64,000 nucleotides of DNA from Phycisphaerales bacterium (GTDB lineage Bacteria > Planctomycetota > Phycisphaerae > Phycisphaerales > UBA1924), in assembly GCA_027019265.1 (NCBI GenBank), contig JALUWX010000107.1, positions 1 to 64,000 of the forward strand. Reading direction: 5' to 3'. A model generated the notes under the pieces. It saw only the letters and a list, made by a program, of their open reading frames with translations. It made no database searches and was not told the DNA's origin. This document shows, piece by piece, positions 26,755-50,839 of the stretch. Both the position numbers and the translations under genes were made by a program. Every line of letters starts with the position of its first letter. The first letter of the stretch is position 1.

Positions 26755-27915
26755 ATGAGCGAGGCGCACGTGCATACGAGACCGACCCGGGGTGCGCGAT
26801 GGACGCGCCGGGTGCTCTGGCCGACGCTCTCGAGGTGGTTCGCGCTGCTGGGGCTGGTGATCGCTGGGGGGTTCGTGGTGGGTCGGGTGCTGACGGACAC
26901 GCGGCACTGGTCCCAGTATCTGTACTGGATCCCCGTGCTGTGGGTCCTGATCTCGTGCTGGGGGCTCTGGGGGCTGAGCGCGCTGCTGGGGTGGCGCGGG
27001 CTTCGTCCGAAGGGGAACTTCGTCCGGGCGCTGCTGGTGCTGATGTGTCTGGGGATGACGCTGTTCGCGCTGGTGTTCGTGTGGCGCGTCCAGCGCCCGG
27101 TGCTGAGGTTGGTGTCGTCGGGTCCCGAGCCCGATCTGCGGGTGGTGCACTGGAATATCGCCGCGGATTCGTTCGATGTGGGGACTGCGGCGGGGGTGAT
27201 CCTGGATCAGGACCCGGACATCGCGCTGATCGCGAATGCGCGCTGGGACGGGCAGCGCTCGGCGCTGCTCGAGGCGCTGGGTGAGGTGATCCCGGATACG
27301 AACGAGATGGGTCCGAGGTTGGCCGGGTCGCTCTTGATCGCTTCGAGATTCCCCGTGACCCACTGGGGTGTGGTGTGGCTCGATCCGAGCGCGAACCCGG
27401 AAGCGAACACCCGATCGACGGGTGACCGGGGGTGGGTGGTGCTGCTGGGGATCGATGTCCCGGATCGGGACGCGCCCTTGGTGGTGTGGGTGGTGGATCT
27501 TCCGAGCGAGCCCACCCAGTGGAGACAGGAGACGATCGATCGCGCGATCCGCGCGGGGACGCGCGCGGATGTGCGGGTCCGGAGCGTTGAGGATGCGCCG
27601 GTGGTGGATCTGTCGGTCCCCGATCTGATCGTGGGGGACTTCAATACGCCGCGGGGGTCGGATTCGCTTGCGCGGTTCGATGGGTTGTCGGGTGGGGGGT
27701 ACGTCGATGCGTTCGAGCGTGTGGGGTGGGGTCGGGGGCGGTCGTGGGTCCCTGTGACGGGGAACCCGCTCGCGCGGGGCGCTGTGGCGCTGGGGGATTG
27801 GCACATCGATCTCGCGCTCGTCGGGGAGGGGCTCCGCGCGACGGGGTACGGGCTGTTCGGACCCGCGCCGAGCGATCATCGGGCGCAGCGGATCGAGTTG
27901 GTGTTCGAGCCCTGA
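26755..27915 (+). CDS. membrane endonuclease/exonuclease/phosphatase (EEP) family protein
   Basis: Three TM helices then LRVVHWNIAADS...IVGDFNTPRGSDSLARF...APSDHRAQRIELVF. Confidence 0.8.
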   Translation: MSEAHVHTRPTRGARWTRRVLWPTLSRWFALLGLVIAGGFVVGRVLTDTRHWSQYLYWIPVLWVLISCWGLWGLSALLGWRGLRPKGNFVRALLVLMCLGMTLFALVFVWRVQRPVLRLVSSGPEPDLRVVHWNIAADSFDVGTAAGVILDQDPDIALIANARWDGQRSALLEALGEVIPDTNEMGPRLAGSLLIASRFPVTHWGVVWLDPSANPEANTRSTGDRGWVVLLGIDVPDRDAPLVVWVVDLPSEPTQWRQETIDRAIRAGTRADVRVRSVEDAPVVDLSVPDLIVGDFNTPRGSDSLARFDGLSGGGYVDAFERVGWGRGRSWVPVTGNPLARGAVALGDWHIDLALVGEGLRATGYGLFGPAPSDHRAQRIELVFEP

Positions 27916-29683: not shown

Positions 29684-31195
29684 ATGGCTCCGACCCTGAC
29701 GAAAACCACGACCCACGGCGCGATCTATTCGGCCGGCTCGAGCATCGTGATCAAGGGGCTCACCCTGGTGGTCCAGGTGATCCTCGCTTGGATGCTGGGT
29801 CCGGACGCGTTCGGTGCTTGGGCGCTGACGATGCCCGTGATGACGCTCTCCGAGCTGATCCGGACCTCTGGTGCGCGGGAGATTCTGGTGCGTCGTCAGC
29901 GTGCGTTCCGGGTGTGGGCCGGCCCGGCGTTCTGGCTCTCGGCGCTGATGGGGCTGATCGCGGCGTTGTTCACGGCTTCGCTCTCGATCCCGATGGCGTT
30001 GCTGTACGAGAGGCCGGAACTGACCGCGTTGATCCTGATGTGTGCGCCTTCACCGCTGCTCGGATCGCTCCAGTCGGTACCCGAAGCGTACCTGCTCGCG
30101 AACAAACGATTCCGGGCGCATGTCATGGGGCTGTTTTCCGCGGGGATCGTGCTGCTCGCGTTCCAGCTGCTGTTCGCGGTGCTCGGGTTCGGGGCGATGA
30201 CGTTCCCGCTCGCGCTCGTCGTGAGCGCGGCGATGCGGGCCGTCATGTTCTGGTACCTGGGGAACCCCGGGTGTTCGCTCAAGCCCAACATCCGGAGGTG
30301 GAAGTACATCGTCGGCGACGCGGGTCGGCTCGTGGGGACCCGGCTCGCGGATTGGTTCTCGATCAATGCGCCGCCGCTGGTGCTGGGTCTTCACTTCGAC
30401 AACGCGTTGGTGGGTGTGTTCGCGTACGCGGTGAGCACATCGTCGCAGGCGATCCGGATCCTGTCGATCAACCTCTCGACGATCCTGTTCGCGGCGCTCG
30501 CGGGGAACGCGCGAGACCCGGCTCGTCAGGAATCCGGTTTTCTCAAGTCGATCGGGGTGCTCTCAACGGTGGGGATCCCGCTGTGTTTCTTCCAGGCCGT
30601 GCTCGCGGAGCCGTTGTTTACGAACGTGCTGAAGATCGAGGAATGGCCGGGCTTGATCGAGTCGTTCCAGTTGCTGTCGATCGGGATGGGGATCCGTCTT
30701 TTGAACCAACCCTCACGGAGTTACATCCTCGCGCAGGGTCGGTTCTCGGCGGCGTTGTGGCTTTCGATCCTGGCCGCGGTGTTGTACCTCATCGTCGCCG
30801 TCGTCGCGGGTCCGTTCGGTGTGGTCGTGCTTGCGGGTTCGCAGGCGTTGGTCCATGTGATCACGGCGACCACGTGGTTTGTGGTTTCTCTGAATCGTTC
30901 GGGTGAGGGGATCCGGAAAGGGTTCGGGCTGGTCCTCCCGACGATCGTCGCTTCGGGGATCGGGATCCTTGTGCCCGGCGCGCTCGCGCACCGGTTCTAT
31001 GAGCACGGGGTGTGGAGCGATATCGCGGTGGGGGTCATCGTCTCTCTGCTCGGATCCGTGCTGTTTCTCGCGCTGAGCATCTCGATGCGCTCGAAGGCGC
31101 TGACAGCAACGGCGAAATGGGCGATCGATATGGCGCCGTCTCGGATGTCGAAACCCATGGCGCGCGTGTCGAGGACACTCCGGATCACGTCGTGA
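29684..31195 (+). CDS. lipopolysaccharide/oligosaccharide flippase (Wzx-like)
   Basis: Multi-TM; GAIYSAGSSIVIKGLTLVVQVILAWMLGPDAFGAWALTMPVM. Confidence 0.85.
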   Translation: MAPTLTKTTTHGAIYSAGSSIVIKGLTLVVQVILAWMLGPDAFGAWALTMPVMTLSELIRTSGAREILVRRQRAFRVWAGPAFWLSALMGLIAALFTASLSIPMALLYERPELTALILMCAPSPLLGSLQSVPEAYLLANKRFRAHVMGLFSAGIVLLAFQLLFAVLGFGAMTFPLALVVSAAMRAVMFWYLGNPGCSLKPNIRRWKYIVGDAGRLVGTRLADWFSINAPPLVLGLHFDNALVGVFAYAVSTSSQAIRILSINLSTILFAALAGNARDPARQESGFLKSIGVLSTVGIPLCFFQAVLAEPLFTNVLKIEEWPGLIESFQLLSIGMGIRLLNQPSRSYILAQGRFSAALWLSILAAVLYLIVAVVAGPFGVVVLAGSQALVHVITATTWFVVSLNRSGEGIRKGFGLVLPTIVASGIGILVPGALAHRFYEHGVWSDIAVGVIVSLLGSVLFLALSISMRSKALTATAKWAIDMAPSRMSKPMARVSRTLRITS

Positions 31196-35001: not shown

Positions 35002-36498
35002 TCAGCTCTCGGGATCTCCGAGATCCTCTGTGATCATTGGGTCTTGTTCGGTTTCGGGAGCGATGTCAGACGGATCTTTATCGGAACCGTGCGCTTCGAT
35101 CCAGGGGTCGCCTTCCATGATGTGACGGGGTGGGGGGATCGCGCCGGGCTCGACGACTTTCGCGCGGAGGAGGTCCTTGAGCGCGATCCCGAGGAGCGCG
35201 ACGGAGACGAGGACCAGGGTGACCCGGGTCAGCGTGATCGCGCGTTTGGAGTACTCGATCCGCGCCCACGAGAGCGTGAGCGCGATGAACATCAGGATGA
35301 AGGGCTCGTGGTAGCGCGTCCAGGAATGGTGGGTCGCGCTCTGCGCGGCGATGAACCCGCAGACGGCGCTGAGCGCCACCCATCCCCGGTGCTTGCCCAG
35401 ACTCGAACACAGCGCGGCGATGATGACCGCGCCGATGGGCGCCATCGCGATGATGATCGGGCTCCGATCCGCGAAGGTCGGCGCAGCGCCGATGATCGCC
35501 CACCACCCCGTGGATCGTCCCGCTTCCGGGTCGGCGGAGGTTGCGACAGCGATGGACACGACGAGCCCGATGACGAAGGCACCGAGGATCGCAGGGCGTG
35601 AATCCTTCCAGCGCGCACACAGGACCTGGAACCCCATCGGCGCGAACGCGATGGAAAGGAACGCGATCTGGAAGAGGATGAACGCGGGGGTTGCGGGGTT
35701 TGCGCCGCTCATGTCGTTCTGGAAGCGCGGGGGGGTGAGCCCGTCCCAGTGGTTCATGAACCACCACACGACCCAGAAGCTCGGGAGGGTCATGACGAAC
35801 GCGTAGAACGCATGCGTGAGGGCGCGGATGAGGTTGGTGCTCATCGAGGGCGCGGGGTTGCTGAGCCGGACGAAGGCGGCGGTCCAGATCATCGCGGCGG
35901 CCCAGAGGTGGACCTGTCGAACGAAGACGAGCACGAGCAGACAGAGCGAGGCGAGCATGACGGACCCGATGAGATTCCATCGGCGGCCGGCGCAGAGGAT
36001 CAGGATCAGGAGCACCCCGATCCACGCGAGGTTGTCGGGGAGGATGTGCGCGCTCGAGGAGAGGACGTAGATCGAGCAAAGCATGGGGAGGGTGAGGAGG
36101 ATCGCGCTCAGGATCCCGCGCGACTTCGCGATGGTGGCGCTGAGGAGCGCGAGGAGGAGTGCGCCGATGGCGGCGCTGACGATCCGGAGCTGGGTGGGGG
36201 ATTCGAACCCGAGCTGCGCGATCGAGGCGAGCAGCATGTGGTACCCGGGGGTCGTGGCCGTGAGTGGGTTGGAGAGATCCGGGGTCGGCCAGGTCGTGAT
36301 GAGGTCCCGGATGAATCGCTCGTGGTACGCAAACGCATCCCACGCGGCGCGCCCACGCGCGGGGGTGATGAGGATGATCGTGAGGGGGAGGGCGAGCGCG
36401 TAGAGAAAGGTCACGAGCCCGGCGATGAGCGCGTGGCGCATCGAGCCCGTGGGCTCGGACGGGTCGGGTGCAGAAGGTGTGTGGGTGGGGTCGCTCAC
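35002..36498 (-). CDS. multi-TM glycosyltransferase-like (GT39/PMT-type) membrane protein
   Basis: Many TM helices; TPGYHMLLASIAQLGFESPTQLRIVSAAIGALLLALL; probable GTG start VSDPTHTPSAPD. Confidence 0.6.
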   Translation of the reverse strand: MSDPTHTPSAPDPSEPTGSMRHALIAGLVTFLYALALPLTIILITPARGRAAWDAFAYHERFIRDLITTWPTPDLSNPLTATTPGYHMLLASIAQLGFESPTQLRIVSAAIGALLLALLSATIAKSRGILSAILLTLPMLCSIYVLSSSAHILPDNLAWIGVLLILILCAGRRWNLIGSVMLASLCLLVLVFVRQVHLWAAAMIWTAAFVRLSNPAPSMSTNLIRALTHAFYAFVMTLPSFWVVWWFMNHWDGLTPPRFQNDMSGANPATPAFILFQIAFLSIAFAPMGFQVLCARWKDSRPAILGAFVIGLVVSIAVATSADPEAGRSTGWWAIIGAAPTFADRSPIIIAMAPIGAVIIAALCSSLGKHRGWVALSAVCGFIAAQSATHHSWTRYHEPFILMFIALTLSWARIEYSKRAITLTRVTLVLVSVALLGIALKDLLRAKVVEPGAIPPPRHIMEGDPWIEAHGSDKDPSDIAPETEQDPMITEDLGDPES

Positions 36499-36694
36499 TC
36501 GGATCCGGGTGGTTGTGGGGCGCGGTGTACAGTTTGCGCTCGGGTGTGCCGATGATGTGGGGGATCGTATCGATCGAACCCGCGCTTGAGCGCTGACGTA
36601 ATCCGAGCGCACGGAGTCTCCCCTGAGTTCAGACACGACCAACCCGGAAACGCCCATCGGAACGACGAAACCGAACGGTTCGCTGAGGTCCTAC

Positions 36695-37621
36695 GTGCGC
36701 CTCGCGCGGGTCCATCAGTGGTCCAAGGGCGCGTTCGTGCTTGTGGGTCCGGCGTTTGCGCTCGCGTCGGGGACGACGATCGATCCGGTCCCCGTGCTCT
36801 GGGCGCTCCTCGCGATGTGTCTTGCGTCCTCCGGGTGTTATGTGTTCAACGACCTTGCGGATGTGGAGCGGGATCGGACACACCCGCGCAAGTGCAAACG
36901 ACCCATCGCGAGCGGGGCGATCTCGGAATCGTCTGCTCGGGTGTTCGGGATCGTCCTCCTGATCGGCGCGATCGGGGCGGCGATGATGGTCGGGGGGGTC
37001 GGACGATGGTGGGTGCTGGGGATCGCCGCGGCGTACATCGTGAATGTGATGGCGTATTCGGCGCTCCTGAAGCACATCGCGATTGTGGATGTGCTGTGTC
37101 TGTCCAACGGGTTCGTGTTGAGGGTGTTGGCCGGGTGTGCGGCGGCGATGGTGACCCCATCGACCTGGCTCCTCAACGTCACCCTCTTCCTCTCGATGTT
37201 TCTCGCGTTCGGGAAACGATTGGGTGAGCGCCGGGTGATGGGGTCGAGCGAAGCGGCGGAGGGGGCGCGCGCTGTCCAGGGGGTGTACACGGATCAGCTG
37301 CTCCGGATGATGGTGGTGGTGTCTGGTGTCGCAAGCCTTTTGACATACACGGGTTATGTACAGTCGCGGGAGCACGACATGTCCATCGTGCTCGCCCGGG
37401 GGGTCCACGGGGACTTCACGTTCAACCTGCTCTGGGTCACCGTCCTCCCGGTGATGCTCGGGCTTCTGAGGACGATCACGCTGCTGATGGCCGGGAAGTA
37501 CGACGATCCCACGGAGCTCGCGATGCGCGACCATGTGGTCCGCGCGTGCGCTGTGGTGTTCGTGATCCTGACGGGGTTGGCGGCGTGGGGGAGCGGGATC
37601 GCGGGGTCGCTCGGGGGTTGA
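36695..37621 (+). CDS. UbiA family prenyltransferase (decaprenyl-phosphate phosphoribosyltransferase-like)
   Basis: ARVHQWSKGAFVLVGPAFAL, SSGCYVFNDLADVERDRTHPRKCKRPIASG; GTG start, true start may be upstream. Confidence 0.8.
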   Translation: MRLARVHQWSKGAFVLVGPAFALASGTTIDPVPVLWALLAMCLASSGCYVFNDLADVERDRTHPRKCKRPIASGAISESSARVFGIVLLIGAIGAAMMVGGVGRWWVLGIAAAYIVNVMAYSALLKHIAIVDVLCLSNGFVLRVLAGCAAAMVTPSTWLLNVTLFLSMFLAFGKRLGERRVMGSSEAAEGARAVQGVYTDQLLRMMVVVSGVASLLTYTGYVQSREHDMSIVLARGVHGDFTFNLLWVTVLPVMLGLLRTITLLMAGKYDDPTELAMRDHVVRACAVVFVILTGLAAWGSGIAGSLGG

Positions 37622-37897: not shown

Positions 37898-40800
37898 ATG
37901 GCACAGCAACGGAAAGCACGCGGACGCGCGCTCCACTCGATCGTCGGTTCGGTCGTGGGGATCGGCGCGCTCGTCGCCGCTTCATCGATGGCGATGGCGG
38001 ACGATGGCTCGAACTCGGTCACGACCCCGAACCCGGAGGAGTCGATCGACTTCGCCGCGCTCGCGGCGATGGCCGGCGGCGCGATGGGTGGGGGCGCTCA
38101 GCAGAAGCCCGACTTCAAACCCTGGAAGGATGTCTCGAAGGGGTTCGAGAAGGTGGTTTCGACGGCCGACGGCTCGTCGTTCTACGACCTGTACATCAAC
38201 AAGGAAGACAACCAGATCCTCGCGGAGCTCCCGCGCGGGTTCGAGAACCAGCGCCACTTTTTCGCGATGACCGTTGCGAGCGGTGAGGTGTTCGCGGGTC
38301 TTCAGGCCGGCGATATGTACACGCAGTGGAAGCGCGTCGGGAAGCGCCTCATGCTCGTCCAGCCCCAGATCGCGGTGCGGTCGTCGGGCGACCAGGAGTC
38401 GAAGGACTCCGTCGAGACGATCTGGACGGATCGGGTGATCCTCGATGTCCCGATCGTGACCATGGGTCCGAACCGTCAGCCCGTGATCGACATGGACGCG
38501 CTGCTCGTGAACAACGCGACCCGGTTCTTCGGGCGCAGCGCGGCCGGGCTCAACCCCGCCCTGACGGTGGTGGATTCGATCAAGGCGTTCCCGAGCAACG
38601 TGGAGATCGAGTTCAAGGGCCCCGTGGCCGGGGGAACGATGAAGAACCTCCACTACTCGATCTCGCAGATCGAGGGTTCGCGCGGGTTCAAGCCCAGGGC
38701 AGCGGATGAGCGGGTCGGGTTCTTCGTGACGAGCTACACGGATCTCGGGAAGTTCAACTGGGAGGATACGTCCCAGCGCCTCATCAACCGTTGGCACATC
38801 GAGAAGGCGGACCCGAGCTTGAAGCTCAGTCCTCCGAAGGAGCCGATCGTCTACTACGTCGAGCACACGGTCCCGATCCGGTACCGTCGCTGGGTGCGTC
38901 AGGGGATCGAGTACTGGAACGAGGCGTACCGCAACATCGGGATCGATGGCGCGATCGAGGTCCGTTACCAGGACAAAGCGACGGGCGCGCACATGGACAA
39001 GGACCCGGAGGATGTACGCCACAACTTCATCCGCTGGATCAGCAACGACGTGGCGACGGCGATCGGTCCGTCGCGCGTGAACCCGATGACGGGGGAGATC
39101 CTCGACGCGGACGTCGTCCTCACGGACGGCTGGATCCGTGTGTTCACGTACCGCTGGGAGGACCTGATGGGGAACCTGGCCGTCGAGGGGATGAGCCCCG
39201 AGACCCTGGGTTGGTACGAGCAGAACCCGCGTTGGGATCCGAGACTCCGTCTCGCGAGCCCTTCGGCGCGTGAGCGGATCATGGTCGAGCGGGCGCAGAC
39301 GCGCGGGCTCGGTCGGTTCGGCGGGATGGGTGTGAGCACGGAAGCGGCGATGCTGCTCGGTGACGACGAGTTCGACGGGCTGGGCGGGCGGACCTCGCAG
39401 GTCTCCGGGATGTGCCGGGCCGCGACGGGCAAGGCGCTCGATCTCGCGATGATGCGTATGCACCTGACCATGCTCGACTCGCTCAGCGCGTCGATGGTCG
39501 ATGACGAGCCCGAGATCAGCGACGAGATGATCGAGCTGATCAAGAAGCAGCTCGAAGAGAACCCCGAGCTCCGGAACATGATCCCGGCTGAGCACCTCGC
39601 GATGCTCGAGAAGGCGATGGCGAAGGACGAGGAGGAAGCGGAAGCTCCCGACGCGCCCGAAGCGGATGCGCCCAAGGCGGCCAAGAAGGCCGAAGAAGAC
39701 CTGATCGACGGCGCGCCCGAGTGGTTCGTCGGCCCGATGCTCGCGGAGCTCGTCGCGCACGAGGTTGGTCACACCCTCGGTCTCCGTCACAACTTCAAGG
39801 GCTCGAGCGCGTACACCCTCGAAGAGATCAACTCGTCTGAGATGAAGGGCAAGATCCCCTGGTCCACGACGGTCATGGATTACAACGGGATCAACATCAT
39901 GATGCCCGGATCCGGCGAAGAGCAGGGCGATTACTCGGTCATCGGGATCGGCCAGTACGACCAGTGGGCGATCGAGTACGGGTACGGCTCGGGTGACCTG
40001 AAGGAGGTGCTCGCGAAGAGCGAAGACCCCATGCTGATGTACGGGACGGACGAGGACACGTGGGGTCCCGATCCCCGTGCGCGTCGTTACGACCTGTCGA
40101 AGAACCCCCTGGACTACGCGAAGAACCAGATCAAGATGGCGCAGCACATCCGCTCGAACCTGCTCGACGAGTTCGTCGAGGAGGGTGATTCGTGGGCGCG
40201 TGCTCGCCGTGGGTACAACATCACGCTGAGCACCCAGATGCAAGCGCTGTCGATGATGGCGAACTGGGTCGGGTCGGCGTATGTGTCGCGGAACAAGAAG
40301 GGTGATGTCGAAGGACAGCGCCCGATCGAGATCGTCGATGCGGACACGCAGCGCGAAGCGCTCGAGTTCGTGATGGAGCACTCGTTCAACGATGAAGCGT
40401 TCGGGCTGACCCCCGAGCTGCTGGCGCACACGACCGTGGACAAGTGGTGGGACGATTACGCGAACATGCTCGCGGACCCGACCCTGAATGTGCACGATCG
40501 GATCCTGGGTGTCCAGGCCTCCGTGCTCAGCATGCTCCTGAACCCGCAGACCCTCCAGCGCCTCTACGACTACGAGATGTATGTCGAAGAGGACACGGAC
40601 GTGCTGACCCTCGCTGAGGAGATGCAAGCGATCACCGACGCGATCTGGTCCGAGTTCGACGGCGGGGTGAGCGGGAAGTACTCGGTGCGTAAACCCATGG
40701 TGTCGTCGCTCCGGAGAAACCTCCAGCGTGAGCACCTGGATCGTCTGATCGATCTGTCGATGGACAACGGCGGGTACAACGCGGCTTCGATGGCCGTCAA

Positions 40801-41029
40801 GACCCTCGCGTCCATGCACCTCCGTGACCTGGAATCGACGCTGAAGAAAGCGGAAGCGGCTCGCTCGAGTCTGGATCCGTACACGACGGCGCATGTCATG
40901 GAGATGCGGACCCGGATCAACAAGGCGCTGGACGCGGATTACATCTACAACACCGGCGACATCAGCGGGGGTGGTGGGATGACCATCATCCTCGGTCGGG
41001 ACGGCGAGATGGACCCGTCCACGAACTGA
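37898..41029 (+). CDS. zinc-dependent metalloprotease (DUF5117/DUF4953-like)
   Basis: Signal region; HEXXH motif in VAHEVGHTLGLRHNFKGSSAYT; TVMDYNGINIM downstream. Confidence 0.88.
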   Translation: MAQQRKARGRALHSIVGSVVGIGALVAASSMAMADDGSNSVTTPNPEESIDFAALAAMAGGAMGGGAQQKPDFKPWKDVSKGFEKVVSTADGSSFYDLYINKEDNQILAELPRGFENQRHFFAMTVASGEVFAGLQAGDMYTQWKRVGKRLMLVQPQIAVRSSGDQESKDSVETIWTDRVILDVPIVTMGPNRQPVIDMDALLVNNATRFFGRSAAGLNPALTVVDSIKAFPSNVEIEFKGPVAGGTMKNLHYSISQIEGSRGFKPRAADERVGFFVTSYTDLGKFNWEDTSQRLINRWHIEKADPSLKLSPPKEPIVYYVEHTVPIRYRRWVRQGIEYWNEAYRNIGIDGAIEVRYQDKATGAHMDKDPEDVRHNFIRWISNDVATAIGPSRVNPMTGEILDADVVLTDGWIRVFTYRWEDLMGNLAVEGMSPETLGWYEQNPRWDPRLRLASPSARERIMVERAQTRGLGRFGGMGVSTEAAMLLGDDEFDGLGGRTSQVSGMCRAATGKALDLAMMRMHLTMLDSLSASMVDDEPEISDEMIELIKKQLEENPELRNMIPAEHLAMLEKAMAKDEEEAEAPDAPEADAPKAAKKAEEDLIDGAPEWFVGPMLAELVAHEVGHTLGLRHNFKGSSAYTLEEINSSEMKGKIPWSTTVMDYNGINIMMPGSGEEQGDYSVIGIGQYDQWAIEYGYGSGDLKEVLAKSEDPMLMYGTDEDTWGPDPRARRYDLSKNPLDYAKNQIKMAQHIRSNLLDEFVEEGDSWARARRGYNITLSTQMQALSMMANWVGSAYVSRNKKGDVEGQRPIEIVDADTQREALEFVMEHSFNDEAFGLTPELLAHTTVDKWWDDYANMLADPTLNVHDRILGVQASVLSMLLNPQTLQRLYDYEMYVEEDTDVLTLAEEMQAITDAIWSEFDGGVSGKYSVRKPMVSSLRRNLQREHLDRLIDLSMDNGGYNAASMAVKTLASMHLRDLESTLKKAEAARSSLDPYTTAHVMEMRTRINKALDADYIYNTGDISGGGGMTIILGRDGEMDPSTN

Positions 41030-41175: not shown

Positions 41176-43743
41176 ATGTCGGAACGGAGCGGTTATCGAG
41201 ACCGCGTCAAGCTCGGTGTGGTCTGGATGGTGCTGTCTTCGCTTGTCGCGAAGGGCGGGACGTTCGCGGCGCAGATCGTGCTCGGATGGATCCTGCTCCC
41301 GGACGACTTCGGGGTGTTCTCGATCGCGCTGAGCGTGACCTCGTTCGTGCAGATTATCCGGGACGGGGGGATGCGCAAGATCCTCGTCCAGAAGGGGGAG
41401 CGGAGGTACGCGGGGCTCATCCGCCCGGTGTTCTGGATCGCGGCGCTGTGCAACACGGGCGCGGCGCTGGTGATCGCACTGCTCGCGTATCCGATGGCGG
41501 CGCTGTACGGGGAACCGATCCTCGCGCCGATGATGCTCGTGATGGCGCTGGGTCCGTTGGTCGGGACGGCGGAGACGATCCATCGCGCCTCGTTGTCGGT
41601 CCGGATGAAGTACCGGGAGCTCGCGGTTGTGAACGCGGTGAACGGGCTCGCGCGGAGCGCCAGTCTGATTGTGTTCGCGTTGATGGGTTTCGGCGCGATG
41701 AGCTTCGCGTGGCCGGCGCTGGTCGCGGCGATCGCGGGGTGGATCGCCGGGGTGTGGTACAACGGTTCTCTGGGGGTATGGGGATCGCTGCGTTTGCGTT
41801 TGTGGGGGACGTTGCTGAGGACGACGTGGTGGATGATGCTCGGGTCGGGCGGGCTCACGGTGATCCGGCTCGGGCCGTACGCGATCCTGGGTCTGATCGT
41901 GTCCACGGCGACCCTGGGGGAGTTCTACTTTGCGTTCCAGCTGATCCTGCAGTTCGAGATTGTGGTGGCGCTGAATCTTCAATCGGTGCTGCTCCCGACC
42001 CTGAGCGCGATCAAGGACACGGGCGCGCGTCATCAGTCGGCCGTGATCCGCGCGGTGCGCTCGCTGACGGCGTTGAGCTCGATCGCCGGGATGGGGATCG
42101 GGGTGATCGCGCCGGATCTGATGCGCTTCGTGTGGGGGGATCGCTGGCTCGGCGCGGTCATCGCGGTCCAGATCATGGCGATGGTCTTCCCCCTCCGGAT
42201 GGTCCAGAGCGTGATCGAGCCCGCGTTGATGTCGAGGGGGCGCTGGGTGTCGTGGGCGAAGCTCATGTGGATCTACGCCGGGATCATCGTGGTGGCTTCG
42301 GTACTCGGGGGGCGGATGTCGTCGAGCGCGGGCGGACTCGCGTTGTCGATCGGGATCGGGTATTTGATCTCGACCTTCGTGGTCGGAGCGATGTCGTGGC
42401 GCACCCTGGGGTTCGATCGTGATCGGGGCGGGTTGTTCTCGAACATGGCGCCGTCGTGGGTCGTGGTGTCGGGTGTGTATCTGCTGGTGCTCCTCGGACG
42501 CGCGGCGATGGGGATCAACGGGGACGCGGACCGGGTCGTGCTCGGGATCCGGATGATCGGGGTCGGGCTGGTCTACGGAGCGATGTCGCTGATCACCCTC
42601 CGTGTGCTCTCGCCCGGGGTGCTCGTGGATCTCAGCGAAGCGCTCCCGGGTCGGGTCTCGGGGGTCGTGCTGCGCGTCTTCGGGCTCGGGGATCACGGGA
42701 AGGAGCGCGGCCGCTTCCGGGCGCGGCTGATCCGGATGGGCTCGCGTTTCACCTGGTGGATCGCGCTGCTCGGGCTGATCGTGTGGTGGTCGTGCTGGGC
42801 GCTCCGCGCGGACGTGTGGTGGTGCGATGTCGTCATGAGCTTGGGCGCACCTGTCGTGGTTGTGCTGGGCGCGCTGAGCGTCATCGGCGCGTGCGGGGTC
42901 GATCGGGTCCGGAAGCTCGTCGTGCTGGCGCTCGCTTCGGGTTCGCTCCTCGTGCTCGCGCAGGGGCGGCGTGTGTTCCCGGAGACCCGCGCGATCGAGG
43001 AGGATTCGGGGTCCTTGCGCGTCCTGACGATGAACATCGGGCTCGACAACAGCGACGTTGATGGGGTGGTGTCGATGATCGTCGAGGAGGACGCGGACAT
43101 CGTGGTGTGCGCTGAGCCGTACTGGAAGATCTTCGAGAGTGTGGTGCGGGACCAGGGGGGGGACATCACCACGGCGCTGGGGTACACACACCGTGTGTAT
43201 CGCCGGCGGGAGGCGCTCGTGAAGACACCGATCCTCGTGATGTCCCGCTGGGCTTTGACCCCGATCGAGGGGATGAGCGATGAGGGCGGGCTCGCGATGG
43301 TGGTCGAGCGCCCGGAGGAACTCGGGGGCGCGTTCGTGCTGCTCGCGGCGCACCCGGCGTCGCCGAGGAACGGGGAGCGGTGGGGCGCGGGGAATACGGA
43401 GATCGAGATCCTGTGCTCGTCGTATCTCCAGCATGCACAACATCTTGCACACCTCCCGGTCCTGGTCGCGGGGGATATGAACTGTGGGGGGATGAGTCTC
43501 CGGGACGGGATGCTGCGCCATCGGTTGGGGGTGTCGAGATCGAAGCCGATTCTGACTTTGGGGGGGACATTTCCGTCTGAAGTGTCGATAGTCGGGGTGG
43601 CGATCGACGATGTGTGGCACGACGCGGCTTGGGCCGTGCGGCGATGGAGCCGGGTGCCCGTGCCGGGATCGGATCATGTGGGTGTTTCGGTCGAGCTCGG
43701 GCTCGACGGAGCGCGCGAGCAATCAGAGGCGGAAGGTCCATGA
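41176..43743 (+). CDS. Wzx-like flippase fused to membrane EEP (endonuclease/exonuclease/phosphatase) domain
   Basis: N-half flippase MSERSGYRDRVKLGVVWMVLSSLVAKGGTFAAQIVLGWILLPDDFGVFSIAL; C-half TM helices then LRVLTMNIGLDNSDVDGVVSMIVEEDADIVVCAE...VLVAGDMNCGGMS...GSDHVGVSVEL. Confidence 0.85.
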   Translation: MSERSGYRDRVKLGVVWMVLSSLVAKGGTFAAQIVLGWILLPDDFGVFSIALSVTSFVQIIRDGGMRKILVQKGERRYAGLIRPVFWIAALCNTGAALVIALLAYPMAALYGEPILAPMMLVMALGPLVGTAETIHRASLSVRMKYRELAVVNAVNGLARSASLIVFALMGFGAMSFAWPALVAAIAGWIAGVWYNGSLGVWGSLRLRLWGTLLRTTWWMMLGSGGLTVIRLGPYAILGLIVSTATLGEFYFAFQLILQFEIVVALNLQSVLLPTLSAIKDTGARHQSAVIRAVRSLTALSSIAGMGIGVIAPDLMRFVWGDRWLGAVIAVQIMAMVFPLRMVQSVIEPALMSRGRWVSWAKLMWIYAGIIVVASVLGGRMSSSAGGLALSIGIGYLISTFVVGAMSWRTLGFDRDRGGLFSNMAPSWVVVSGVYLLVLLGRAAMGINGDADRVVLGIRMIGVGLVYGAMSLITLRVLSPGVLVDLSEALPGRVSGVVLRVFGLGDHGKERGRFRARLIRMGSRFTWWIALLGLIVWWSCWALRADVWWCDVVMSLGAPVVVVLGALSVIGACGVDRVRKLVVLALASGSLLVLAQGRRVFPETRAIEEDSGSLRVLTMNIGLDNSDVDGVVSMIVEEDADIVVCAEPYWKIFESVVRDQGGDITTALGYTHRVYRRREALVKTPILVMSRWALTPIEGMSDEGGLAMVVERPEELGGAFVLLAAHPASPRNGERWGAGNTEIEILCSSYLQHAQHLAHLPVLVAGDMNCGGMSLRDGMLRHRLGVSRSKPILTLGGTFPSEVSIVGVAIDDVWHDAAWAVRRWSRVPVPGSDHVGVSVELGLDGAREQSEAEGP

Positions 43744-45158
43744 CAGCGGCGTTCTCGACATTATCGGTCCTGCTCCTCGGTGTGCTGATGCTCGTGGCGC
43801 TCGTGCGGACCCGTTGGGCGATCGTGCTGGTGTTTGCGTATTCGGGGATCGAGCAGCTGATCGAATCGTTCTCGGCGTTCTTCGCGAGCAAGTCGTCGCT
43901 GATCAATATCGCCGTCGGGATGGTCTCGCTGCTCACGGTGGGACGGCTTCTGATCGTGGGTGAGCGTCCGTTCCGGGGCGCGGTCAACGGGATCTCGATC
44001 CTGGTCTTCATCCTGTACGCGTTCGCGGTCTTCGGTGTGTTGTACTCGATGATGCCCGAGGCCGGGAAGCATTTCGTGAAGACCGGATTCCCGTATTACA
44101 TGCTGTACCTGGTGCTCGTCCCCTCGATGATCACCCGGACATCGATACTCAACGAGGTCGCTATCCCGATGCTGGTCGTCGGGTGCGCCGTGATGCTCGC
44201 GATCCTGATCAGCCCGCGCACGATCTTCTGGGGTTCGCGCATGTTTATCGACCTGAGCTACTCGCGCGCCGGTTCCGACGCCGTCGGGAACCCCCTCGCG
44301 ATCGGGGAGCTCGGGGGGACCGTGGTCATTTTCGCGGCGTTGATGTCCGCGCGTCGGGCCGGGTCCCTGATCGCGGTCTTCCGGACGGGCGCGGTAGCGC
44401 TAGGGCTGGTGGTCTGCTTCTTCGCGGCGGTGCGTGGACAGCTCATGTTCTCGATCTTCTTCGCCGTCCTCTTCTTCCCCCTCGCGAACCACGTGAAGAA
44501 CGTGAAGCAGTTCATGATCCGCTCTGCTTCAGCGGGCGCGGCGCTTGTGGTGCTCTTCGGGGTGTACAAGATATTCCTCTCCGGGAGCGCCTCGGTGACC
44601 CGGTTCTCGTCCGAGGGTCTCTCGGAGGGGATCAGTTCACGTATGTACTTCCTCACCGAATCGCTCAAGGCGTACACCTCGAACCCGACAAACTTTCTCC
44701 AGGGGCTGGGCACAGGATCGTTCAACACCGTGGTGCGCCACGGGGGCGATGGGTATCTCTGGCCTCACAACCTTTTCATTGATGTGCTCATGCACCAGGG
44801 CATGATCGGGTTCTCGATCATGACCGTGATCTTCCTGCTGTGCGCCCGTTCCGCTTGGGTGCTCTTCCAGCGCGCCCGTCACGGTCAGGTGGATCGGAAC
44901 TCCGTCGCGATCGCGCTGGCGCTGTGCGGGTACGTGACGATGATCTCGATGAAGCAGGGCACGTTCATGCTCTACCCCCTCCCCTTCTACATGTTCCTCG
45001 TGCTCGCGAAGATGCACAAGCTCTCCGACGCGGAGCTCGCGGAAGCGGCGCTGCACGAATCGTGGTCCGAACCCGAGAACGGGTGGAACGAGGACTACGG
45101 CGATCCGGGATACGACGACCAGGGCTACAGCGATGAGGGCTACGCCGCCCACGCTTGA
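43740..45158 (+). CDS. O-antigen ligase/polymerase family protein
   Basis: Multi-TM; RMYFLTESLKAYTSNPTNFLQGLGTGSFNTVVRHGGDGYLWPHNLFIDVLMHQGMIGF; ATGA overlap with the upstream stop. Confidence 0.85.
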   Translation: MTAAFSTLSVLLLGVLMLVALVRTRWAIVLVFAYSGIEQLIESFSAFFASKSSLINIAVGMVSLLTVGRLLIVGERPFRGAVNGISILVFILYAFAVFGVLYSMMPEAGKHFVKTGFPYYMLYLVLVPSMITRTSILNEVAIPMLVVGCAVMLAILISPRTIFWGSRMFIDLSYSRAGSDAVGNPLAIGELGGTVVIFAALMSARRAGSLIAVFRTGAVALGLVVCFFAAVRGQLMFSIFFAVLFFPLANHVKNVKQFMIRSASAGAALVVLFGVYKIFLSGSASVTRFSSEGLSEGISSRMYFLTESLKAYTSNPTNFLQGLGTGSFNTVVRHGGDGYLWPHNLFIDVLMHQGMIGFSIMTVIFLLCARSAWVLFQRARHGQVDRNSVAIALALCGYVTMISMKQGTFMLYPLPFYMFLVLAKMHKLSDAELAEAALHESWSEPENGWNEDYGDPGYDDQGYSDEGYAAHA

Positions 45159-45182: not shown

Positions 45183-45764
45183 TCAACCCTGGGTCTGGAC
45201 GGGCTCGCAGAACTTCCCGACCTGCGGGGTCTGGCTGAGCATCTCCTCGTGGATCTGCTTCTGCTCTTCGTTCTCGAAGCGATCACGGAGCTTCTTGGCT
45301 GGGACCCCGGCGTGGATCTCGTAGGGGGGGACGTCCTTGGTGACGACCGCGCCGGCGGCGATGATCGACCCCCGGCCGATCGTGACCCCGGACATGATGG
45401 TGGCGCCAGCGCCGATCCAGACGTCCCGTTCGAGGGTGGTCTTGCGCTTCTCGGGTCGTCCCGAGAAGATCATGGGGACCCCGGGCTCGTCGAATCGGTG
45501 GTCGTCGCCGACGATGAGGACGCGCGGGCCGAGCATGACGTACGCGCCGATCTCGACCTTGGGGCAGATGACGCAGCCCTTCCCGACGAACGAGTACTCG
45601 TGCGCGATGAGGTCCTTGGAGACAAGCTTGAGATCGTTGGAGTAGAACGTCGGGTGGGCGTTTTTCAGCCCGTAGCGGAGCCGACGGACGGCCATCGATC
45701 CGTGGCGGAGCTTGAGGTAGAGCCAGGTCTGGTTCCGTGCGATGGATTTGAGCTTTCCGATCAT
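45183..45764 (-). CDS. LbH (hexapeptide) acyltransferase
   Basis: LERDVWIGAGATIMSGVTIGRGSIIAAGAVVTKDVPPYEIHAGVPAKKLRDRF. Confidence 0.88.
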   Translation of the reverse strand: MIGKLKSIARNQTWLYLKLRHGSMAVRRLRYGLKNAHPTFYSNDLKLVSKDLIAHEYSFVGKGCVICPKVEIGAYVMLGPRVLIVGDDHRFDEPGVPMIFSGRPEKRKTTLERDVWIGAGATIMSGVTIGRGSIIAAGAVVTKDVPPYEIHAGVPAKKLRDRFENEEQKQIHEEMLSQTPQVGKFCEPVQTQG

Positions 45765-46972
45765 GGGTCGCTCCGTGTGGATCCGAGCGCGGTGGGGAAT
45801 CCGAGGTCGTCGGGCTCGTTCCCGTGGACGGCCGCGTCGATGAGCTCGCGCTCGGTGATTGGGTTGTAGTACTTCTCGATCATCGACCGGGCGGCGTTGG
45901 TTCTTTCGTCGATATCGGTCGTGGGCTTGATCCATCGCTCGATGGTGTGCGCGAGGTCGTCGGTGTCCCCGGCTTTATAGAAGTCCCCCGAGATTCCTTT
46001 CACGATCGCTTCGTATTCGGGCATCTGCGCGTCGAGGTCGTCGTTGGTGATGACGGGTGTGCCGTATGCGAGGGAGTGCATCGCGGTGAGCCCGACGGGG
46101 CCTGGCATGACGGTGACGTGGGCGCTCATGATCATGCGCGCCAGTTCCCGTTCGTCGTAGACCGCGCTGGTGAAGACGCAGTGGAGGTTGAGTCTCTGCG
46201 CGAGGGCTTCGAGCTCGGGTTTGTGTTCGCCGTCGCCGACGATGAGGATGTTGACCTTGGTCCCGTTGGCTTCGATCTTCGAAGCGGCTTCGAGGAGCAT
46301 GTCCAAGCGCTTGTGTTTGTTGAGGCGCGTGACGTTGATGATGACAGGGATGTCCTCCCGGCCCGGGAAGAGCTCGGCGCGTTTGGAGGAGACGTCTTCG
46401 TTGCTGATCGTGGCGCGGACGGTGTCCTGGGACTTGGTGTCGAGGGAGTTGTAGATGACGTGGATAAACGAGGGCTTGAAGCCCATGTGGTTCACACCGA
46501 TGGTCTTCGCGCGGTGCCCGTACACGAGGAGCGCGTTCCCGAGTTTGTAGAGCGCGTTGCGGATCCGGCGCTGGTTTCCCCGTTCGACCTTGAGCCACCC
46601 ATGCGCCCAGAAGAGGACGCGCTTTCCTGTGAGTCTCCCGAGGATGGCCGCGATCCAGGTGGTGGGCCATTTCGGGTTCCCGAGGAGGATGAGGGCTTTG
46701 TACTTCGGGGAGAGCGCCATGCGGATCGCGCCGGGCTGGAGGAAGAAGGGGCCGACGAATCGGCCTTTGACCTTGTGGAAGCGATCGTCGGGGAAGGCCG
46801 TGGTGAGCTTGATCCCGGAGTTGTGGTTGTCGGTGTCCCCGAAGAACTCGTAGCGGAAGTCGCCCTCCTCGATGAGTTCGAGGTTGATGGGTTCGCGGTA
46901 GTGCGCGAAGTAGTGGTAGAGCACGGCGACGCGCCCGTTCTTGAGCTGAGCTTGGCGCTTCTGGTCATCCAT
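45761..46972 (-). CDS. glycosyltransferase family 4
   Basis: VAVLYHYFAHYREPINLELI, VTRLNKHKRLDMLLEAASKI, MPGPVGLTAMHSLAYGTPVITND. Confidence 0.85.
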   Translation of the reverse strand: MDDQKRQAQLKNGRVAVLYHYFAHYREPINLELIEEGDFRYEFFGDTDNHNSGIKLTTAFPDDRFHKVKGRFVGPFFLQPGAIRMALSPKYKALILLGNPKWPTTWIAAILGRLTGKRVLFWAHGWLKVERGNQRRIRNALYKLGNALLVYGHRAKTIGVNHMGFKPSFIHVIYNSLDTKSQDTVRATISNEDVSSKRAELFPGREDIPVIINVTRLNKHKRLDMLLEAASKIEANGTKVNILIVGDGEHKPELEALAQRLNLHCVFTSAVYDERELARMIMSAHVTVMPGPVGLTAMHSLAYGTPVITNDDLDAQMPEYEAIVKGISGDFYKAGDTDDLAHTIERWIKPTTDIDERTNAARSMIEKYYNPITERELIDAAVHGNEPDDLGFPTALGSTRSDP

Positions 46973-47816
46973 GCGCGTCGGTCTCGGGTTTGCGTGTTTC
47001 TCTGACTTTGAGCACGATGAAGTATTCGTAGATCATCTGGAGGGTGCAGTACGTGAGCCCGGCGCGCCCGTCGAGGAACCCTCGTCCGAGGATGTACATG
47101 TAGAGGAACTTGAAGACGGGACGGAAGGGCATGCGGAAGGAGATGTTCTTGAGCTCGAGTCTTCGGGTGTTTCGATCGGACGAGAAGAGGTTCCCGAGCT
47201 TGACGGGGTTGGACTCGAGTGCGCGGATGGTCTCGGTCGCTTCGTACGACGAGTACCGGTTGTGGCGCTCGATCCACTCCCGGAGCCCTTTGGAGAAGTT
47301 GTAGTGGAGGAAGTGCTTCTTGAGGTACCCGATGTCGCCGTCCACCGTGGGGACGGGGTTCGCGAGGCGCGCGAAGCGGATGTGGGGGGGCTGGAAGAAG
47401 CGCATGATGTTGCCCGGGGGCATCGCGTGCTTGAGCCATTTCCCGCGGAAGAAGTTCTTGCGCCCGCAGTAGTACGCGACGGGCGCGTTGTCTCGGGTGA
47501 GCTCACCCGAGTCCCAGCGCTTCGCGATGTCTTCGATCTCCGCGCGGAGTTCGGGGGTCATGCGCTCGTCGGCATCAAGGTAGAAGACCCAGGTGTATTT
47601 GAAGTCGATGTGCTCCATCGCCCAGTTCTGATGGGGACCCCGCCCGTCGTAGGGACGCTCGAACCAGCGGGCTCCTCGATCGAGCGCGACCTGCTTCGTG
47701 TTGTCCGTCGAGAGGGAGTCGAGGACGACGATGTCGTCGAAGCCTTCGAGGGAGTCGAAGAGCCCGGGGAGGTTGTTCTCTTCGTCGAGGGTCTGGATGA
47801 AGATGGAGACGCTCAT
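46965..47816 (-). CDS. glycosyltransferase family 2
   Basis: VSIFIQTLDEENNLPGLFDSLEGFDDIVVLDSLSTDNT...WVFYLDADERMTPEL. Confidence 0.9.
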   Translation of the reverse strand: MSVSIFIQTLDEENNLPGLFDSLEGFDDIVVLDSLSTDNTKQVALDRGARWFERPYDGRGPHQNWAMEHIDFKYTWVFYLDADERMTPELRAEIEDIAKRWDSGELTRDNAPVAYYCGRKNFFRGKWLKHAMPPGNIMRFFQPPHIRFARLANPVPTVDGDIGYLKKHFLHYNFSKGLREWIERHNRYSSYEATETIRALESNPVKLGNLFSSDRNTRRLELKNISFRMPFRPVFKFLYMYILGRGFLDGRAGLTYCTLQMIYEYFIVLKVRETRKPETDAHG

Positions 47817-49117
47817 GATTTGGATGTTTCCGTGATCGGTGCGATATCGAGTGTATAGATCGCGCGGGATCCGTTCATCGCGGAGTCGATGCAGATCGTG
47901 CTGCCGTCTTGTGAGAATCGGGGGTGGAGATCGACCCGGAGCTCGGCGTCCAGTTCGCGCGGGGTGTGGAAGCGCCCGATCTCGGTGCCTTGGTCCTTGT
48001 GGGTATCCCAGAGGTAGAGGGGCTGACGGGACTTCATGTCGGGGTACCCGTCGGTGAGGACCCATTGGGGGGGTGTAGACCCATCATGCAGATAGGTGCA
48101 GTGCCCGTCGCAGGTGAGTTCGCCCTGCGCGAAGGGGGTGGTGGGCGCGTCGTTCTGGTCGGGGATGAGGAGGTAGGAGTCCTTCATGATCTTGTTCATG
48201 AGGATCCGGGGTTTGCCCAGCGCGTAGTAGACGGGTTTGAGGGTCTTTCGCGCGAGCGTCATGGCGCGCTGCTTTGGGGTGGGCTTCTCGGTCCCGGTCC
48301 CGAGGAGCGCTCGCTTCCCCGCCCATGCGAGCAATGTCTGATTGTCGCGCCAGTCGTAGTGCGAGACCATCCCGGACATGAGGAGCCGACGATCGGTCCC
48401 GGTTGTGGTGTCGAAGGTGAAGAGGCGCGACGCGAGGATCCCGTCGGGTCGGTCGAACCGATGGAGCACGCACGCGCGGGTCCCCGAGGGGTTGATCATG
48501 ATGTGGTTGATGTGTTGGTGGGGGGTGTGCTCGGGGAGGTCGTCGTGTCGCGCGAAGTCGTGGATGGAGACGAGCTGGGTGATCGCGCCGGTCTCGAGAT
48601 CGAGGCGCGAGATCCCGGTCGTGCTCGGCGACGGTTCCGAGCTATGGGGGTCCGTGAGCCCGGGGTATCCGTACTCGGGACGGAGACGGGTGAGACGCGC
48701 GAAGTCGAGGGTGAGCGCGAAGGTTCGATCCTTGCTGACGGCGTACACCGGGACGGGGTATCGACGGATCTCGTTCCCGCTCAGATCAACCGCTCGCGCG
48801 ATGATGGTGTTCTCGTCCGTCCGGTCGTTGAACAGCAGACACGCGGTCCCGGCGATGGTGATCCACTGGAGGTGTGCGCCCTGCTGGTAGTTCCATGCGC
48901 GGGTGGTCGCGACGGGATGGAACACTTTGGTTTCGAGATCGATGTATCCCAGTTCGCACGGGTCGTTCGCGCTGGGGAATCGATCGCAGAAACTCGTTCG
49001 GTGCGCGAGGAGCTTCGATCCATCGTCGGACCAGGGCTGTTTGTCGTAGTATCCGACGAAGTAGTGCGCCCCGTCGTCGGGGGTGACACGCTCGGGTTGG
49101 AGGTGGTGCTCGATCAT
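47813..49117 (-). CDS. beta-propeller (TolB/WD40-like) protein of the polysaccharide locus
   Basis: Repeated strand motifs: HYFVGYYDKQPWSDDGSKLLAHR, ISRLDLETGAITQLVS, HQHINHIMINPSGTRACVLHRF, LHPRFSQDGSTICIDSAMNGSRAIYTLDI. Confidence 0.65.
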   Translation of the reverse strand: MIEHHLQPERVTPDDGAHYFVGYYDKQPWSDDGSKLLAHRTSFCDRFPSANDPCELGYIDLETKVFHPVATTRAWNYQQGAHLQWITIAGTACLLFNDRTDENTIIARAVDLSGNEIRRYPVPVYAVSKDRTFALTLDFARLTRLRPEYGYPGLTDPHSSEPSPSTTGISRLDLETGAITQLVSIHDFARHDDLPEHTPHQHINHIMINPSGTRACVLHRFDRPDGILASRLFTFDTTTGTDRRLLMSGMVSHYDWRDNQTLLAWAGKRALLGTGTEKPTPKQRAMTLARKTLKPVYYALGKPRILMNKIMKDSYLLIPDQNDAPTTPFAQGELTCDGHCTYLHDGSTPPQWVLTDGYPDMKSRQPLYLWDTHKDQGTEIGRFHTPRELDAELRVDLHPRFSQDGSTICIDSAMNGSRAIYTLDIAPITETSKS

Positions 49118-49710
49118 GCGCCTTCGGGGGTTCCGTTCGTCGATCCGGGTCCGAACCCTCGGTCACGGAGGCGCTTGGTGGGCGAGCCCGCGTAGACCCC
49201 CCAGGGCTCGAGGTCTTTGAACACGCTCGAGCGCGCGCCGACGACGGCTCCGTCTCCGATGGTCAGCCCGGGTCCCACGAAACAGTCCGCGGCGATCCAC
49301 ACGCGCGATCCGATCGTGATGGGCAGGGGGACGAGGGGGAACTCGGGGACATCGAAGTCGTGAGTGGCCGCGCAGAGGTAGGTGTACTGGGAGATGGTGG
49401 TGGACTCGCCGATGGTGATGGGCGCGACGCAGTAGCAGTCAACGTCGTCGGCGAGGGTTGCGTGCTTTGCGAGGGTGAGGTTCTTGGGGTACCAGATCTT
49501 CGCTTTGGGGTAGACGCGCGCTCTGGGGTGGATGTTTGCGCCGAAGCACGTGAGGAGAAACGCGCGCCAGCGATGGCATGGCTTGGGGGACCAACGGAAG
49601 AGGGTCGCTTGGACGATGTTCCACACCGAGCGCCCGATCCGGTTGCTCAGGGTGTGGGGAGACGGGTTGGGTCTCGTCGTCGGGATGGTGGTCAGCGCGT
49701 CGTCGGTCAT
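49114..49710 (-). CDS. WcaF-type LbH acyltransferase (1 of 3 tandem)
   Basis: CFGANIHPRARVYPKAKIWYPKNLTLAKHATLADDVDCYCVAPITIG...SRVWIAADCFVGPGLTIGDGAVVGARSSV. Confidence 0.88.
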   Translation of the reverse strand: MTDDALTTIPTTRPNPSPHTLSNRIGRSVWNIVQATLFRWSPKPCHRWRAFLLTCFGANIHPRARVYPKAKIWYPKNLTLAKHATLADDVDCYCVAPITIGESTTISQYTYLCAATHDFDVPEFPLVPLPITIGSRVWIAADCFVGPGLTIGDGAVVGARSSVFKDLEPWGVYAGSPTKRLRDRGFGPGSTNGTPEGA

Positions 49711-50267
49711 GATTTGGGCCCGTTGTAGTCGCGCTCCCGGCGCGAGCGCGCGGGGTGACCCGTCGCGATGGTCCAGCGATCGAGTTCGGATTCGGGCGCG
49801 ATGTGGGAGCGCGCGCCGACGAGGAGCCCGTTGGGGATGGGGGTGTCGCCTTCGACGACACACTCCGCGGCGATCCACACATCGTCCCCGATCGTGATCG
49901 GCGCGGGGTGCTGGGGCTTGGTCCGGTCGTGCTCGTCGTGCGCGACACAGCGGATCTCGCAGAACTGGGAGACGACGGAGCGCGCCCCGATCGTGAGTGG
50001 CGCGGGGTTGTAGACGTGCGCGCCCTCCCCGATGGAGCTCTTGCGCCCGATCGTGAGGTTCCAGGGGTGGGAGATCCGGACACCCCCTCGGACCCGGGCT
50101 TGGGGGTCGAGGGATGCGCCGAAGGTGTTGAGGATCGCGCGGCGGAGCTTGTACATCGGGCTCGGGACCAGGGGCATGACCAATCGCTGGGTGAGTCCCC
50201 AGAGGAGAGCGCGGGGTCCGGGGCTTCCCGGGTCGCGCGGGGTCATGCTCGAGAGGAGGATGGTCAT
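49707..50267 (-). CDS. WcaF-type LbH acyltransferase (2 of 3 tandem)
   Basis: TFGASLDPQARVRGGVRISHPWNLTIGRKSSIGEGAHVYNPAPLTIG...DDVWIAAECVV. Confidence 0.88.
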   Translation of the reverse strand: MTILLSSMTPRDPGSPGPRALLWGLTQRLVMPLVPSPMYKLRRAILNTFGASLDPQARVRGGVRISHPWNLTIGRKSSIGEGAHVYNPAPLTIGARSVVSQFCEIRCVAHDEHDRTKPQHPAPITIGDDVWIAAECVVEGDTPIPNGLLVGARSHIAPESELDRWTIATGHPARSRRERDYNGPKS

Positions 50268-50839
50268 GCGCGTTCGGTCTCGCACGGGACGGGCTTGGCC
50301 GGGTTCCCGATGTACTGGGTGTCGGGCTCGGTGTTCGCGTAGATGGCCGCTCTGGGGTGGGTGATGGTCCCGGGCGCGAGCACGACGCGCGGGGCGATGA
50401 ATGTCGCCGTCCCGAGGATACAGCGGGGTCCGATCGTGATCGGTTCCCTGAGGAGTGTGAACTTGGGGTCGGTGTAGTCGTGGGTCCCCGCGCAGATGTG
50501 GGAGAGGGATCCGATCTCGGAATCCTGTCCGATGGAGATGGGTCCCAGCGCGTAGAGGATCGCTCGATCGTGGACGACGGCGTTGTCGTGGATCGTGAGA
50601 TTCCAGGGGATGATGACCTTGGCCGCCGGGTGGATCCGGACGTTTTTCCCGATCGAAGCGCCGAATCGGCGCAGGAGGAAGCGTCTCCATCCGTGGAGTG
50701 GGGTGGGGGAGAACCGGAACAGGGGGACCCCCAAAACCCCCCAGAGGGCGCGGACGATCTGCGCACGTCTGGACCACGGGGATTTCCGTGGTGGCTCGGG
50801 GATCTCGTCGGGTGTTGTCCGGGTGGGTGTGTTGGTCAT
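50264..50839 (-). CDS. WcaF-type LbH acyltransferase (3 of 3 tandem)
   Basis: RFGASIGKNVRIHPAAKVIIPWNLTIHDNAVVHDRAILYALGPISIG...GTHDYTDPKFTLLREPITIG. Confidence 0.88.
   Translation of the reverse strand: MTNTPTRTTPDEIPEPPRKSPWSRRAQIVRALWGVLGVPLFRFSPTPLHGWRRFLLRRFGASIGKNVRIHPAAKVIIPWNLTIHDNAVVHDRAILYALGPISIGQDSEIGSLSHICAGTHDYTDPKFTLLREPITIGPRCILGTATFIAPRVVLAPGTITHPRAAIYANTEPDTQYIGNPAKPVPCETERA

Follow-up and report, generated by a model that had tools for sequence, protein, structure and literature searches.

An apparently species-limited fusion of a Wzx-like flippase with a membrane-anchored EEP hydrolase in an exopolysaccharide locus of a Phycisphaerales bacterium

A single reading frame in a Phycisphaerales genome joins a MOP-family (Wzx-like) flippase to a membrane-anchored hydrolase of the EEP (DNase I-like) superfamily, which is best regarded as an ATGA-coupled gene pair that became fused in this lineage and not as a standing architecture. 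The frame lies in an exopolysaccharide locus of the window, the whole stretch of 64,000 nucleotides that was analysed here. The architecture is new and apparently limited to this species, and is built from known domains. That the fusion is genuine, and that its product carries out a periplasmic phosphoester hydrolysis coupled to export, is a reading for and against which we see about equal weight.

The fused reading frame and its setting

The frame (41176-43743, plus strand) runs without a break for 855 aa from the ATG at 41176, or for 859 aa from an upstream TTG, and so is uninterrupted as a prior sequence-only reading had held. Its product begins with the flippase, continues with a short basic linker and three TM helices, and ends with the EEP domain (Table 1). 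Both domain calls of that reading proved right in a domain search, with Polysacc_synt_3 (PF13440) scoring 131 bits (E 7e-38; Pfam cut-off 23) on residues 36-328 of the fusion, Polysacc_synt (PF01943) 64 bits (E 2e-17; cut-off 28.2) on residues 14-279 and Exo_endo_phos (PF03372) 38.7 bits (E 1e-9; cut-off 24.5) on residues 617-834. Set against the EEP half alone (42691-43740), PF03372 gives 41.3 bits (E 2e-10).

The N-terminal half has the same core as MOP/Wzx flippases (PF13440, PF01943; NCBIfam PRK10459), well over the Pfam cut-offs, and is found like them in a polysaccharide locus with a Wzy-like neighbour. It departs from them in bearing a C-terminal three-TM EEP domain and in missing the NCBIfam equivalog cut-offs (65.9 versus 273 bits). 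Separate flippase genes in relatives are 40-43% identical to it in G009, G010, G011 and G020, and 53% identical in G007. MOP flippases with an extra C-terminal domain do exist, for example mycobacterial MviN/MurJ with its pseudokinase region, but in the fusion the extra domain is an intact hydrolase and is predicted to be periplasmic.

In the EEP half the catalytic residues N114, E141, D261, N263, D305 and S326-D327-H328 (numbered within that half) are invariant across an alignment of 24 orthologues, here called EEPA, that include the fused copy, and a family motif SPR-x4-W-x2-GN is also invariant around its SPR and W. The four EEP motifs quoted in the sequence-only reading are all present, and a loss of catalytic residues, for which the N/E/D-x-N/D/SDH set was inspected in the alignment, was found at no position. 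The fold, the full set of canonical catalytic residues and the N-terminal TM anchor are common to membrane-anchored bacterial members of the EEP/DNase I-like superfamily (PF03372); the SPR motif and the fusion to a flippase set the EEP half apart from them. An AF2 model of this half (pLDDT 80, pTM 0.81) places the three N-terminal helices ahead of an EEP domain of the four-layer, DNase I-like fold, and Foldseek comparison with the PDB gives 4ruw as the best match (E 5e-13), then APE1, ExoIII, TDP2, nocturnin and neutral sphingomyelinase. Because these are EEP enzymes with many different substrates, the fold names no substrate for the EEP half, and searching solved structures by sequence with the EEP half alone gave no convincing match. 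The three helices stand behind a basic and presumably cytoplasmic segment, and the positive-inside pattern seen in hydropathy and K/R counts points to an EEP domain that faces the periplasm. MOP/Wzx flippases are built of 12-14 TM helices in two pseudo-symmetric halves; a full-length AF2 model of the fusion has about 14 helices, but at low confidence (pLDDT 62, pTM 0.49), and as a means of placing the EEP site against the flippase it was rejected as too poor.

Table 1. Features of the fused frame and of its locus in the window
Feature	Coordinates	Strand	Basis
MOP-superfamily (Wzx-like) flippase half, aa 1-506	41176..42693	+	PF13440, PF01943; identity to separate flippase genes
Basic linker HGKERGRFRARLIRMG, site of lost ATGA overlap	42694..42741	+	Three-frame junction comparison, codon score, alignment
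Three predicted TM helices before the EEP domain	42742..42990	+	AF2 model of EEP half, hydropathy, K/R counts
EEPA, the EEP (DNase I-like) domain with intact catalytic residues	43024..43740	+	PF03372, invariant residues, Foldseek
Wzy/O-antigen-ligase-like membrane protein	43740..45158	+	ATGA overlap with fusion stop; Wzy_C 21.2 bits, under cut-off 31.7
Upstream met-zincin peptidase (DUF4953/DUF5117), a syntenic marker throughout the genus	37898..41029	+	PF16313 E 1e-70; 60-73% identity in same-genus genomes
DPPR synthase homologue of the UbiA family, lacking a phosphatase domain	36695..37621	+	PDB 8j8j E 5e-28, NDxxDxxxD aligned; PRK12324 178 bits, below cut-off
GT-C-like multi-TM protein, divergent from UbiA	35002..36441	-	Multiple hydrophobic segments
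EEPB, second membrane EEP, with Asn for Glu in a degenerate active site	26812..27915	+	PF03372 E 1e-7; orthologue alignment
Second MOP flippase of the locus	29684..31195	+	PF13440 E 2e-33

The polysaccharide setting proposed from the sequence is borne out by a GDP-mannose dehydratase-like protein, glycosyltransferases, an XrtA-type polysaccharide deacetylase and pyruvyl transferases. An O-antigen ligase overlapping the fusion stop by ATGA had also been proposed; the overlap is there, and the ligase/polymerase label is tentative because the Wzy_C score lies below the Pfam cut-off. This Wzy-like gene is syntenic in G003, G006, G009, G010, G011 and G019. Upstream lies a block of GMD, GT-C-like, UbiA and zincin genes (strands -, -, + and + respectively), conserved through much of the family; in a large share of these genomes the zincin peptidase is a syntenic part of the exopolysaccharide locus, with no obvious reason for its presence. 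Elsewhere in the window, hexapeptide acetyltransferase-like and glycosyltransferase genes follow on the minus strand in a run of 4-nt overlaps (45183-50734), and four paralogous, probably secreted proteins (4966-6381, 17892-19241, 19278-21491 and 28258-29529) share, close to their N-termini, a motif resembling F(T/N)YQGxLxxxGAPxxGxYxF.

Split genes and the distribution of the fusion

In three same-genus Phycisphaerales MAGs (G010, G011 and G020) the flippase and EEPA are separate genes, and four nucleotides, ATGA, contain both the stop of the flippase gene and the start of the EEP gene. In G010 and G020 the EEP gene comes directly after a flippase of 40-42% identity, and is itself about 31% identical over the whole EEP half and 36-37% identical over the catalytic domain; in G011 the same junction is visible before the contig ends. 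Since separate homologues of both halves adjoin in relatives, the association of the two is not a matter of chance. Aligned to the window, the flippase C-terminus LPGRVRRVARRAVLLPAS (followed by the stop) of G020 falls on LPGRVSGVVLRVFGLGDH; the residues that come after LPGRVSGVVLRVFGLGDH in the window occupy the position of the basic N-terminal tail in EEP orthologues, with the linker aligned in place with that tail in the separate EEPA proteins. Judged from these alignments, a change of frame with loss of the overlap stop would be enough to create the fusion.

A second flippase-EEP fusion was found neither among 163 genomes of the family, nor in an even sample of 397 genomes of the class (with at most two candidates scored per genome), nor among 392 genomes of the phylum, and the suspicion that this is not a standard architecture is upheld to the extent that, in these three sets, the fused form is seen only in this genome. 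Long open frames in G026, G082, G115, G143, G175, G182 and others were considered as fusions and rejected as upstream read-through or separate genes. The open-access literature gave no flippase-EEP fusion or partnership. Peptide patterns found no exact relatives in genome contigs, a six-sequence EEP alignment found 11 loci there, of which the best seven belong to Phycisphaerales or Phycisphaeraceae MAGs, and the EEP half had no match in plasmids.

EEPA was detected in 73 of the 163 family genomes, and within the genus it is a more conserved member of the locus than the flippase. The zincin gene stands directly before EEPA, with no flippase between, in 13 same-genus genomes (G002-G006, G008, G012-G017 and G019), and a flippase lies between the two in G000, G010, G011 and G020. 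In G009 the flippase is present and no EEPA was detected, its place being taken by a sulfotransferase gene (L033:6727-7548) which is convergent and lies between the flippase and the Wzy-like gene. The solitary EEPA of the 13 genomes and the solitary flippase of G009 count against interdependence, and so at this position neither protein has a strict need of its partner. The window groups with G003, G006 and G019 in the peptidase tree as well as in the EEPA tree, and as these three genomes are without the inserted flippase, the flippase is patchily distributed here and only the window's own branch carries the fusion. The flippase tree, which unites two long branches, G000 with G009, gives no order for flippase gains and losses.

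Flippase partnership and the proposed hydrolytic step

The second membrane EEP of the window, EEPB, belongs to a lineage present in 110 of the 163 family genomes, and in the alignment of its orthologues the metal-binding Glu is replaced by Asn (an ANPR motif), most of them also being without the Asp of SDH. With that Glu replaced, EEPB is unlikely to be an active phosphatase; it is a possible pseudo-enzyme family, widespread in the family and repeatedly NTGA-coupled to flippases. Among 20 EEPB loci chosen by coordinates that place EEPB and a flippase close together, 19 have a flippase like that of the fusion and then EEPB on the same strand, which makes at least 19 genomes in the family, and in ten of the 19 (G022, G032, G159, G160, G162, G163 and G176-G179) stop and start overlap by the four nucleotides NTGA. 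Because such ATGA/NTGA overlaps recur for EEPA and EEPB alike, two EEP lineages are translationally coupled to flippases in the family, and the window fusion is the most extreme form of a recurrent partnership. As the flippase-paired EEPB proteins look catalytically degenerate, their pairing may be non-catalytic in purpose.

For the fusion itself the preferred reading is catalytic. The substrate of the flippase half, moved through the inner membrane, would be a polyprenyl-linked saccharide or sugar donor, and the second half, as a three-TM-anchored EEP hydrolase with its domain on the periplasmic side, would have one of three targets: the lipid-linked product after flipping, the carrier once released, or a phosphorylated sugar. 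Metal-dependent phosphoester hydrolysis of one of these is most likely the job of the EEP half, and it would help to render export one-way and to recycle the carrier. The earlier view that flippase and EEP act together gains from the adjacent ATGA-coupled genes of relatives and from the EEPB pairing across the family, although the fusion is seen only once; the more specific proposal, of export coupled to hydrolysis of a lipid or phosphodiester intermediate, fares well as a partnership through gene adjacency and less well where EEPA stands alone with no flippase beside it, as in the 13 relatives, and its substrate is putative.

The EEP half may instead be a periplasmic nuclease or a polymer-modifying phosphodiesterase, acting on matrix DNA or on phosphodiester substituents of the polymer and having only location and expression in common with the flippase. 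APE1 and ExoIII are indeed among the nearest solved folds, though in this superfamily fold does not predict substrate, and EEPA lies apart from flippases in most genomes. However, membrane EEPs of the family are NTGA-coupled to flippases time and again, which favours a step near the flippase, and we regard a nuclease or polymer-modifying role as possible but unlikely.

Another candidate role comes from the addition of pentofuranoses outside the cytoplasm by a polyprenyl phosphoribose synthase (PPPRS), a MATE flippase and a GT-C of family GT136, as set out by Kelly et al. 2024 (PMC11127046); the three-component pathway also needs a 5'-phosphatase, the family of which differs between organisms. 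A UbiA/DPPR-synthase homologue, a MOP-type flippase and a GT-C-like protein are likewise together in one polysaccharide locus of the window, which differs from those systems in a UbiA without the HAD PRP domain, in an EEP fused to the flippase and in a varying flippase-UbiA adjacency. Were the EEP half the 5'-phosphatase, UbiA would make polyprenyl-phosphoryl-ribose-5-phosphate, the flippase would export it, the EEP would dephosphorylate it and the GT-C would transfer ribofuranose. The solved structure nearest to the window UbiA protein is that of the M. tuberculosis DPPR synthase (8j8j), and no HAD PRP phosphatase domain was found on it, unlike the Citrobacter enzyme, which has a HAD phosphatase domain (PMC11127046); an EEP phosphatase would therefore fit. 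The GT-C-like gene, which gave no Pfam family match, forms a conserved block with the UbiA and zincin genes, and a UbiA homologue is found in 151 of the 163 family genomes, 134 of these 151 having EEPA or EEPB. On the other hand EEPA is undetected in 81 of the 151 while the active site of EEPB is degenerate, EEPA in other genera often sits in polysaccharide loci that carry no UbiA gene up to about 9 kb away, and the published scheme has dephosphorylation precede flipping (PMC11127046), which is at odds with an EEP domain predicted to be periplasmic. A 5'-phosphatase role is thus improbable. EEPA as a universal partner of UbiA was rejected, since over half of the genomes with UbiA lack it. We would put forward only as a conjecture, and a doubtful one, the wider idea that membrane EEPs are dedicated MOP-flippase partners in Phycisphaerales exopolysaccharide loci and that fused, intact EEPA is the missing 5'-phosphatase (or carrier phosphatase) of a pentofuranose-donor pathway, an enzyme of unrelated structure, with flipping and dephosphorylation by one polypeptide and export driven one way. 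The GT-C-like and DPPR-synthase-like genes (35002-37621), with GMD and the met-zincin, are in their own right a candidate three-component pentofuranose system in Planctomycetota.

The junction, the active site and the meaning of the fusion

An assembly artefact, in which an over-called base joins two separate and coupled genes, would account for the fusion without any change of architecture. Relatives keep two genes, the fusion rests on a single MAG assembly, and removing one over-called base anywhere in 42640-42727 gives a flippase stop TGA, five bases and then an ATG at 42736. The junction was not found in any other assembly, and in G007, the closest flippase relative, the contig ends inside the flippase. 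Codon usage was used here in the form of a score built on the codon frequencies of 15 window genes and compared with 498 true coding windows. In the fused frame the 14 linker codons (42694-42735) score +3.8, at the 28th percentile of the true windows and so ordinary coding, but in the +1 frame needed by an unfused flippase they score -9.6, and none of the 498 true windows scores so low. Since linker codon usage fits no frame but the fused one, an assembly error is unlikely, and any one-base error would be confined to roughly the last 30 bases of the interval, which are free of long homopolymers. The linker moreover resembles the basic tail of EEPA orthologues, a tail that an unfused EEPA would be without. 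Taken with the points in its favour, we consider the artefact quite improbable.

Least probable of all, and quite unlikely, is a mainly non-catalytic role for the EEP half, such as docking or stabilisation, in the periplasm, of the flippase or the Wzy-like protein. In its favour is the flippase-paired EEPB lineage, with its lost metal-binding Glu and often lost Asp of SDH; against it, every catalytic residue is invariant in EEPA, the fused copy included.

With the genuine and catalytically competent fusion as the preferred reading, its value is as evidence for two proteins acting in one pathway, and it suggests that flippase and hydrolase cooperate in surface polysaccharide synthesis. Together with the recurrent 4-nt flippase/EEP overlaps it suggests a step of phosphoester hydrolysis right behind the export of lipid-linked sugar, and makes the EEP half a concrete candidate for the periplasmic hydrolysis of lipid or sugar phosphates in the exopolysaccharide synthesis of Planctomycetota.
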